From Candidatus Saccharimonadota bacterium (GTDB lineage Bacteria > Patescibacteriota > Saccharimonadia > Saccharimonadales > Saccharimonadaceae), in the NCBI GenBank assembly GCA_017545595.1, contig JAFWLO010000003.1:1-48597 (forward strand): DNA of 48,597 nt, given 5' to 3'. The number at the start of each line of letters is the position of its first letter. The first letter of the stretch is position 1. The notes under the pieces were generated by a model. That model made no database searches. It saw only the letters and a list, made by a program, of their open reading frames with translations, and was not told the DNA's origin. Made by a program: the position numbers and the translations under genes. Shown piece after piece: positions 4,291 through 7,131 of this stretch.

Positions 4291-4560
4291 TTCTCCACCC
4301 TCTTCGACTCAACGCTATCTATGAATGTAGGAAGTGGCTTAACCAGAGCTGACTCCGGTATTCTATCCGAACCGTTTGCGCTTCCCCGTAGCGGCTACTA
4401 TGGCTGGGTCTCTACTAGCCTTAGCAGTAGGAGTTCGTACGGCTACTACTGGTCTTCGAATACTTACGCTACCACGTACTCCCACGAACAGCTCTTCGCT
4501 TCTACAAACTTCAGTCCTCAGCATGGGAGCAACAAGGGCAGTGGCATTACAGTGCGGTGT
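4291..4560 (+). repeat. FISUMP cassette 1 (silent DGR-like variable repeat)
   Basis: A 270-nt unit that encodes, in one frame, only the last ~90 residues of a FISUMP/C-type-lectin-like domain. The frame runs FDSTLSMNVGSGL, then GILSEPFA, the YWSS core, and ends GITVRC at 4558-4560. It has no upstream gene, promoter or ribosome site. The ATG at 4321 lies inside the domain and aligns with an internal Met in the other copies. After the final Cys the frame runs out of phase into cassette 2. The unit aligns with cassettes 2, 3 and 5 over 240 nt without any insertion or deletion. Differences concentrate at codons that are AAC or AAT in at least one copy. Confidence 0.8.
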
Positions 4561-4567
4561 GTCGCTC

Positions 4568-4837
4568 TTCTCCAACCTCTTCGACTCAACGCTTTCTATG
4601 AATGTAGGAAGCAACCTCGCCAGAGCCGACTCCGGTATTGTCTCCGAACCGTTTGCGTTTCCTCGTAGTGGCTACTATAGCTGGGGCACTGCTGGCTTTT
4701 ACTATAGGAGTTCGTACGGTTTCCACTGGTCTTCGCGTACTTACCATACCGCGGACTCTCGTTACCATGGCTTCTACTCTTCGTACTTCGGCCCTCAGGC
4801 TGGGCGAAGCAAGGGCTACGGCTTTACGGTTCGTTGT
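4568..4837 (+). repeat. FISUMP cassette 2
   Basis: Same 270-nt unit 7 nt after cassette 1, starting at the shared TTCTCCAACCTCTTCGACTC boundary and ending at the Cys codon 4835-4837. Its variable codons encode R, Y, S, G, G, Y, Y, F and R where cassette 3 has mostly N. The surrounding frame (GIVSEPFAFPRSG, YFGPQ, GFTVRC) is conserved. A chance open frame from cassette 1 runs into it, but this is a product of codon structure, not a fused gene. Confidence 0.8.
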
Positions 4838-4882
4838 CAAGCTTCAAAAATTATGAAGTTCTTGCAGTTTTACAAAGCGACT

Positions 4883-5148
4883 TCTCCCTTTTCAGTTCAA
4901 CGCTATCTATGAATACAGGAACCAACTTAACCAGAGCCGATTCCGGTATTCTATCCGAACCGTTTGCGTTTCCTCATAGTGGCGCCTATAACTGGAACTC
5001 TACTAGCCTCGGCAATAGGAGTTCATACGGCAACTACTGGACTTCGCATGCTTACTCTACCACGCGCTCTCACTACCAGGCATTCGGCTCTACCATCTTT
5101 GGCCCTCAGAATGGGAACAACAAGGGTTACGGCGTCGCAGTTCGTTGT
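4883..5148 (+). repeat. FISUMP cassette 3, closest to the presumed template
   Basis: From the internal ATG (4909) to the Cys codon (5146-5148) it is 240 nt, exactly as in cassettes 1, 2 and 5. Its left 25 nt are diverged. At codons 28, 30, 36, 42, 68, 70 and 71 of the unit it carries AAC or AAT, the state expected of an unmutated template. It is therefore the copy nearest to a hypothetical template repeat. Confidence 0.8.
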
Positions 5149-5159
5149 ACTATTTCTAA

Positions 5160-5252
5160 TTATCGCAGAACGATGACACAACGAATTGCGAGTCCAGCCC
5201 CCTTGTAGTCAGCACTTTCGGGCAGAAAAGAGGCTGAGCTGAAGAAGGCAAA
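5160..5252 (-). pseudogene. Inverted, diverged FISUMP C-terminal fragment
   Basis: Between cassettes 3 and 4, on the opposite strand, 30 codons read as another FISUMP end: AFFSSASFLPES, then ADYKGAGLAIRC, a short tail VIVLR and TAA. It is clearly related in pattern (F-S-S, P, KG.G.A.RC) but much more diverged than the five cassettes. It abuts the truncated left end of cassette 4, so a rearrangement joined the two. Confidence 0.6.
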
Positions 5253-5477
5253 AACTTAACCAGAGCCGACTCCGGTATTATCTCCGAACCGTTTGCGTTT
5301 CCTCGTAGTGGTCGCTATATCTGGGGCTCTACTGGCCTTAACACTAGGAGCTCGTACGGCTACTACTGGTCTTCACATGCTTACTCTACCACGCTTTCTC
5401 GCAACCAGCTCTTCAGCTCTATGTACTTCAATCCTCAGTCTGGGTACCACAAGGGCTATGGTTTTACAGTTCGTTAG
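5253..5477 (+). repeat. FISUMP cassette 4, 5'-truncated
   Basis: The unit begins only at codon 6 (ACTTAACCAGAGCC) where the inverted fragment ends, then aligns without gaps. Its last codon is TAG in place of the TGT (Cys) of the others, so it ends GFTVR. The variable codons again keep their third base (R, R, I, G, G, N, T, Y, H, L). Confidence 0.78.
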
Positions 5478-5512
5478 TTTTCTTCTATATAAGAAAACTA
5501 TTCTAAGTTTCC

Positions 5513-5541
5513 TTGACGGTTTTCTTCCATAGAGGTAAAAT
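5513..5541 (+). promoter_or_regulatory. Promoter of the DUF4143 ATPase gene
   Basis: TTGACG (5513-5518), a 17-nt spacer and TAAAAT (5536-5541). The ATG follows at 5551, so the mRNA has almost no leader. Confidence 0.75.
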
Positions 5542-5550
5542 ATAAACAAG

Positions 5551-6768
5551 ATGATTAAGAGAAAAACTTATTTAGATAGAGTTATGGCCTTCGCTGATGC
5601 CGATTTGATAAAAATCTTGGTTGGCATTCGTCGCGCCGGCAAATCTTCTATCCTAACCGGAGTGGAGAACGCCCTTCTTCGCGGTCGTCATGTCGCTAAG
5701 AATAACATTATAAAAATCAACTTCGAAGATCTCGATTATCTCGATATTTCCACGAAGTCTGATTTTCTTAAGCTTGTGCGACCCTTTGTTGGAGACAGGA
5801 CCGAAAAAAAATATTTTCTTCTCGACGAAGTTCAGCGTATCGACGGTTGGGATGAAGTCGTCAACGGTCTTCGCGTAGCTGGAGCCGATGTCTATCTTAC
5901 CGGGTCGAACTCTAAACTTCTCTCGAAGGAACTCTCGACCTATCTCACTGGTCGTTTTATCAATACTCAAGTTTTCCCCCTTAACTTCTCTGAATATCTC
6001 GATTTCCGACGCGCTTCCGGAGCTGAGCTAAAAACTCTCAGTGAAGAGTTCAAGGCGTTTATGGAGCGTGGCGGTTTTCCGGCGCTCCACACCTCCGAGA
6101 GAAGCCTTTCCGAATGTGACGAATATATTCGTGACGTTTATTCTACCATCATCTTCCGTGACCTCGTCGAGCGACACAAAATCCGCAATACAGAACTCCT
6201 TACGCGCATTGTTAAATATATTTTTGACAATATCGGGAATCTATTTTCCGCTAAGTCTGTCGCTGACTTTCTTAAATCCGAACAACGAACCCTGTCCATC
6301 GAAACTATCTATAATTATCTCAAATGGCTCGAGGAAGTCTTTGTTATTTTCCGCGTTCCGCGCACTGATCTTCGAGGTAAGAGCATTCTAAAAATGCAGG
6401 AAAAATTCTATCTCGGAGATATCGGTTTTCTTTATGCCGTCAACGGTCGTAACAGGTCGTACTCCTCTGGCGTTCTAGAAAATATCGTCTTCTGCGATTT
6501 GGTTTCTAAAGGATATGACGTTAAAATCGGCAAAAATGGAGATAAGGAAATCGACTTTGTTGCCGAGCGGCAAGGCGAGAAGCTTTATCTTCAAATATGC
6601 GAAACTTTAAAGGGTGAATCTACGCGCGAACGAGAGTTTTCCGCATTCGAGGGTATAAATGACAATTTCCCAAAATACGTCCTCGTCGGCGATAAATCTT
6701 CCATTCCTGCTTCAAAAAACGGAATTTCTGCTGTATATCTTCCAGATTTTCTTCTCTCTTTACGATAA
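5551..6768 (+). CDS. AAA-family ATPase with DUF4143 domain
   Basis: 405 aa. The N-terminal AAA_14 domain has Walker A GIRRAGKSS near residue 25, Walker B YFLLDEVQ near residue 90, a sensor VYLTGSNSKLLS near residue 115, and the GRF.N.QVFPLNFSEYL region typical of the family. After a middle helical part, a DUF4143 (PD-(D/E)xK-like) C-terminal domain carries LENIVFCDLVSKGYDV and KEIDFVAER. Members are widespread in reduced genomes and their biochemical role is unsettled. The gene sits exactly between FISUMP cassettes 4 and 5, starting 74 nt after one and ending 8 nt before the other. A second, divergent paralogue is at 32395-33738. Confidence 0.92.
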   Translation: MIKRKTYLDRVMAFADADLIKILVGIRRAGKSSILTGVENALLRGRHVAKNNIIKINFEDLDYLDISTKSDFLKLVRPFVGDRTEKKYFLLDEVQRIDGWDEVVNGLRVAGADVYLTGSNSKLLSKELSTYLTGRFINTQVFPLNFSEYLDFRRASGAELKTLSEEFKAFMERGGFPALHTSERSLSECDEYIRDVYSTIIFRDLVERHKIRNTELLTRIVKYIFDNIGNLFSAKSVADFLKSEQRTLSIETIYNYLKWLEEVFVIFRVPRTDLRGKSILKMQEKFYLGDIGFLYAVNGRNRSYSSGVLENIVFCDLVSKGYDVKIGKNGDKEIDFVAERQGEKLYLQICETLKGESTREREFSAFEGINDNFPKYVLVGDKSSIPASKNGISAVYLPDFLLSLR

Positions 6769-6776
6769 TTCTACGC

Positions 6777-7046
6777 TTCTTTAACCTCTTCGACTCAACG
6801 CTATCTATGAATGTAGGAAGCAACTTAACCAGAGCCGATTCCGGTATTCTCTCTGAACCGTTTGCGTTTTCTAGTAGTGGCGCCTATATCTGGCACTCTA
6901 CTGCCCTTCACGGTAGGAGTTCGAGCGGCAACTACTGGTCTTCGCATACTTACTCTACCACGGGCTCCCACTACCAGGTCTTCTATTCTACGGGCTTCTA
7001 TCCTCAGGATGGGTACCGCAAGGGCTACGGCTTTACAGTTCGTTGT
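6777..7046 (+). repeat. FISUMP cassette 5
   Basis: A complete 270-nt unit with the same left boundary sequence as cassettes 1 and 2 and the same 240-nt body. The variable codons read S, A, I, H, A, H, G, N, H, G, D, R, again with conserved third bases. After the Cys codon it continues for 8 codons (VAFIEKLLK) to TAA. It starts 8 nt after the ATPase stop codon and has no promoter of its own. It could be co-transcribed with the ATPase but has no ribosome site at the internal ATG (6807). Confidence 0.8.
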
Positions 7047-7131
7047 GTGGCTTTTATAGAAAAACTGCTTAAATAATTCCCTGCATGAGATGACTAAGTC
7101 TAGGCGGATGTTTATGATATACTTAGAGCAT

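Follow-up and report, generated by a model that had tools for sequence, protein, structure and literature searches.

Under the prevailing view, diversity-generating retroelements (DGRs) write over their target in each round, and earlier variants are lost. Neisseria pilS/pilE and Borrelia vls combine promoterless partial copies having conserved flanks with a long expressed gene and RecA, while shufflons and Acinetobacter pdif modules consist of alternating inverted C-terminal segments. Within DGRs, one template of Treponema denticola serves several distant variable repeats (VRs), a few targets being truncated, and some isolates keep VRs without reverse transcriptase (RT) and template (PMC4891356); Fib_succ_major (FISUMP) has been recorded among the domains targeted by DGRs (PMC4159848). 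No published description of silent DGR cassettes was found in a literature search that was thin on subscription journals. The window analyzed here was the whole 48,597-nucleotide contig C15 of the Candidatus Saccharimonadota genome G000 (745 kb, 15 contigs, 98.8% complete), and its five FISUMP cassettes were probably part of a genome-wide, DGR-fed silent archive that is exploited by homologous recombination.

The five window units shared one orientation and a gap-free internal alignment (Table 1), confirming the indel-free array proposed in a sequence-only reading of the same DNA. "Array of five" was correct for the window but undersold the genome: a whole-genome tblastn search gave 57 FISUMP copies on both strands in about 10 clusters, about 55 FISUMP 3'-end cassettes (window five included) were scattered over the genome, and two classes were distinguished, with about 35 cassettes in the conserved and about 18 in the diverged class. 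Orientation mostly alternated in the largest cluster. In the Pfam search, the window units scored under the family cut-off and matched the C-terminal third of Fib_succ_major (about positions 125-187 of the 187-position profile); their ORFs of about 79-124 aa spanned no more than this last third, too short for a complete domain. Around these units, promoter-like sites were not enriched (4 found versus 7.0 expected), and the earlier view that they lacked target N-terminus and promoter was upheld. A YchF search identified uncultured Saccharibacteria from the ruminant gut as relatives, among them Candidatus Nanosyncoccus alces; any FISUMP copy lay near the YchF locus in 6 of 80 relatives and short cassette-like ORFs in only 2, and because such synteny was so rare the cassette sites were taken as species-specific. 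As a separate observation, four of the seven AAA_14/DUF4143 ATPase genes of the genome adjoined DGR elements (rough p 4e-4).

Table 1. Coordinates of cassettes and associated features (entries without contig or locus label are window positions)
Feature	Location	Strand	Remarks
Silent cassette 1	4299..4568	+	5' box ~4303; ACCAGAGC at 4342; VRC end ~4552
Silent cassette 2	4576..4845	+	head-to-tail behind cassette 1
Silent cassette 3	4887..5155	+	
Silent cassette 4	5243..5477	+	5'-short form, begins near ACCAGAGC (5259); TAG at 3' end; the common 225-bp unit form
AAA_14/DUF4143 ATPase gene	5551..6768	+	separates cassettes 4 and 5; adjoins DGR elements
Silent cassette 5	6785..7054	+	carries 5' box
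Other DGR-adjoining AAA_14/DUF4143 genes	C5:1067-2341; C7:22952-24226; C2:65242-66528		
Largest cassette cluster	C7:16.9-26.8 kb		
Template repeat	C2:66870-67070 (L035:2871-3071)	-	
DGR RT gene	C8:106495-107616		374 aa, intact
Probable target gene	C4:1-2805	-	935+ aa
Full homing tail	C5:529; C2:53161; C2:68144		
Partial homing tail	C8:54794		
Second template-repeat remnant	C2:53.9-54.1 kb (L034:15890-16070)		
Second, unrelated RT gene	C9:15739-16791 (L033:6739-7791)		best PADLOC match RT_VI
Tyrosine recombinase gene	C2:25460		XerC/D-like in size
Surface-type protein gene	C14:5857-8928 (L044)		1023 aa
G029 spacer examples	L272:1145-1174; L284:1066-1097		between inverted cassette pairs

In most cassettes, homology to the gene set in no more than a few bases from ACCAGAGCC and ran to CGTTGTGT(CGC), while a few cassettes extended further 5'. 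On their 5' side, conserved cassettes went beyond the stretch homologous to the current template, and this extension carried target-gene sequence. The 3' homing tail (IMH-like) was absent from the window cassettes and most others in G000, being kept in full at three sites and in part at a fourth. The cassette unit of congener G011 differed from that of G000 but was equally sharp, and it ended at the stop codon. ACCAGAGCCGACTCCGGT, which borders the common unit on its 5' side (positions 5259-5276 of the window, and likewise at the 5' ends of cassettes in general), formed an imperfect inverted repeat with a 7-bp stem. Further intergenic repeats of the interspersed type, such as GACATTCCCGAGCAAGAGCTACTGCGTCGCGCCTTG, recurred next to cassettes on C2, C10, C11, and C7. 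A common flanking element or attachment site was rejected: only general intergenic repeats and, in congener G029, variable palindromic spacers were found.

The RT and template repeat, for which the sequence-only reading had pointed to the rest of the genome, were found on C8 and C2, respectively. The template displayed AAC or AAT at all 17 hypervariable codons. The C8 RT, found with the RT of congener G030 (canonical layout target-TR-RT-accessory) as query, was 65% identical to it and harbored the motifs IVIGNLSSQLL (IGxxxSQ type) and YVDD. A PF00078 search gave the C9 RT only, but loss of the DGR RT was ruled out by the G030 query. As a candidate for the Avd-type accessory gene expected earlier, a 272-aa gene overlapped the C8 RT; it seemed to correspond to the 270-aa neighbor of the G030 RT, a gene whose protein had no Pfam match. 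The C4 gene, an orthologue of the 1104-aa G030 target with N-terminal similarity to it, was the likely target of this DGR. Its contig ended within the FISUMP domain, before the VR, and the sequence turned multi-copy there; the anticipated full-length FISUMP gene was thus found as the C4 target, but its VR lay beyond the contig end and no full VR with a cassette haplotype was seen. The genome carried the main hallmarks of a DGR, among them template and RT, and RecA was encoded as well.

Three further loci were recorded in addition to these parts: (i) the template-repeat remnant on C2, which retained the upstream sequence and 3' tail with the repeat body missing, and whose tail was a closer match to most cassette 3' ends than the intact template was; (ii) the C9 RT gene, located directly behind an HTH gene and ahead of DNA methyltransferases in what looked like a defence island; and (iii) the C14 gene, adjoining a sortase-like gene, whose protein had two FISUMP-like domains with weak similarity only to the cassettes.

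The cassettes were compared with the template of their own genome. In the five window copies, 108/260 template A positions differed (41.5%) versus 69/685 others (10.1%; p ~1e-25). Across 35 cassettes, changes affected 668/1161 AAY-codon adenines (57.5%), compared to 36/581 third bases of AAY codons, 64/615 adenines of other codons, and 319/4100 other non-A bases, the third-base and other non-A change amounting to 6-8%; each contrast had a Fisher p below 1e-90, with cells not fully independent, and the adenine bias suspected from the letters alone was overwhelming. Of the 12 variable codons listed earlier, 26, 28, 30, 35, 36, 42, 63, 68, and 71 had AAC/AAT in the template, while 23, 33, and 47 were not AAY there, and eight more AAY codons (40, 53, 56, 58, 60, 65, 70, and 74) had to be added. 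The same pattern was displayed by (i) G011 against its own template (AAY adenines 432/743, AAY third bases 15/372) and (ii) G029, which had no template found, with heterogeneity at codon positions 1-3 of 0.54, 0.35, and 0.13 in variable codons versus 0.09, 0.07, and 0.17 in conserved ones. A DGR origin of the cassettes was close to certain. Ordinary paralogue decay, to which the mere existence of diverged cassettes might be ascribed, had negligible probability: variable-codon third positions were nearly invariant in three species, and the RT and template, the absence of which together with equally changed third positions had been named as its signature, were both present.

Haplotypes were nearly all independent, with just two similar cassette pairs; apart from these duplicated pairs, no haplotype blocks common to complete VRs and cassettes were found. 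Such independence, like the homing tails kept at a few sites, would be expected if every cassette were a remote active target, i.e., a VR diversified in place, but the window cassettes and most others lacked the tail, a target gene, and the domain's N-terminal two thirds, making this explanation highly improbable. No full target gene surrounded the VR of the window cassettes, and these were not canonical DGR variable repeats; the former designation as DGR variable repeats held for the footprint and not for ordinary VRs, since N-terminus and homing tail were missing.

The adenines of G011 allowed mutagenesis to be separated from what followed it. Synonymous third-position adenines (TCA serine codons) were changed in 39/72 cases (54%), while amino-acid-changing adenines outside AAY codons were changed in 20/159 (13%; p ~1e-10), and a matched context pair gave 9/18 for CAC versus 7/69 for the adenines of TAC tyrosine codons. 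BPP-1 RT misincorporates at adenines in every context, strongly before C (PMC12875486), and thus sequence context was unlikely as the cause of this contrast; protein-level selection therefore acted after mutagenesis. G000 cassettes had a pN/pS of 0.40 at non-A sites and one stop in 33 cassettes; in the conserved class, this trace of selection may derive from the source gene. Eleven diverged cassettes carried the STLSMN box, and the ten of them aligned in full had a body pS of 0.71 (synonymous saturation) with 10/10 frames open, the chance of an open frame under neutral change being about 0.02-0.035 per cassette; the eleventh had a stop just past the box in the chosen frame, and a 124-aa ORF read through it. 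The 5' box itself was nearly identical within the diverged class (pS 0.18) and was read as an upstream crossover segment, another nucleotide-level role being possible. Four-gamete conflict was found in 62/120 site pairs, which could stem from DGR rewriting or recurrent mutation too.

These data also bear on whether the cassettes are dead by-products, that is, mutagenized DGR cDNA or VR fragments at ectopic sites that were never reused. The cassettes do resemble insertions in their sharp shared ends, their unrelated flanks, and their occurrence in both orientations, and promoter-like sites were not enriched; however, raw cDNA should change Tyr/Thr/Gln adenines as often as synonymous ones, which was not the case, conserved cassettes carried gene sequence beyond the current template homology, and diverged cassettes retained ORFs and the conserved box despite synonymous saturation. 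We regard dead by-products as unlikely. The off-target retrohoming products once offered as the other option were disfavored by the G011 contrast, and the archive usable by recombination was favored over them because a protein filter and long-term purifying selection were visible.

Among 60 congeners, 59 had FISUMP matches. Short-frame cassette genomes included G000 (57 hits), G029 (at least 100), G011 (29), G008 (29), and G063 (48); G079 and G077 harbored many full-length FISUMP genes instead; and only a canonical DGR was assigned to G030 and, judged by low hit count, G033. Neither a DGR RT nor a template was found in G029, yet at least 100 footprint-bearing cassettes were present. In this genome 51/66 close junctions were inverted (p 1e-5), and spacers of 28-34 bp were common at tail-to-tail junctions; these spacers were partly palindromic, resembled TTAGCATGCTAA, and were of dif-like size. 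These junctions, with the alternating orientation on C7, might indicate a shufflon- or dif-module-like site-specific system in which a recombinase moves or flips inverted cassette pairs. Against it, the sole tyrosine recombinase of G000 lay away from the arrays, no dedicated recombinase was found beside them, no conserved site was present between tails in G000, the window units were direct repeats, and alternation may persist simply because direct repeats delete; the probability left to such a system was very small, marginally below that of in-place diversification.

The silent archive was well supported as a function; like silent cassettes elsewhere, the copies were partial and promoterless, with both ends homologous to the expressed-type C4 gene. 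As a mechanism, the C8 RT would introduce adenine-specific errors while copying the C2 template, and the copies would enter the VR of a surface protein that is expressed, presumably at the C-type-lectin-like FISUMP end of the C4 gene; variants still able to fold would pass selection. VR copies with fixed boundaries (the FDSTLSMNVGS box or ACCAGAGCC on the 5' side, a point just ahead of the stop and homing tail on the 3' side) would be stored at intergenic sites without N-terminus or promoter, and homologous recombination at the conserved 5' box on one side and the 3' end on the other would swap stored ends into the expressed gene. We infer this cassette-to-gene exchange, and likewise the direction of copying, the read-out by recombination, and a part in the binding of host bacteria. 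More tentatively, and with somewhat less than even probability, the whole may constitute a system in which the DGR writes, selection filters, a dedicated fixed-end mechanism stores, and recombination replays; if so, the library would remain useful after RT loss, as in G029. The carriers are episymbionts needing grip on changing host bacteria, and the archive, if true, would offer a concrete route by which Saccharibacteria might switch or regain hosts. It would also add memory to DGRs and join retroelement mutagenesis with recombinational antigenic variation, otherwise described separately, and the cassettes provide a natural record of surviving DGR variants.

Compared to the canonical DGR (Bordetella phage BPP-1; congener G030), G000 shared the DGR-type RT, AAY template, and adenine-specific change, along with a candidate accessory gene and a probable C-terminal target domain, but canonical DGRs have one or few VRs inside genes, while the G000 copies mostly had no promoter, N-terminus, or homing tail. 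The T. denticola DGR has 2 to 7 target genes, (PMC4891356), in contrast to the tens to at least 100 fixed-end silent cassettes observed here, and the papers searched contained no other case of similar extent. Shufflons and Acinetobacter pdif modules resembled the cassettes in the alternating inverted order of C-terminal segments, but G000 had neither a dedicated recombinase nearby nor a conserved site. Neisseria pilS/pilE and Borrelia vls shared with G000 the partial promoterless copies, conserved flanks, RecA, and a long gene, presumably expressed in G000; their diversity accumulated, whereas that of G000 was written by a mutagenic RT and would be brought into expression by conversion.
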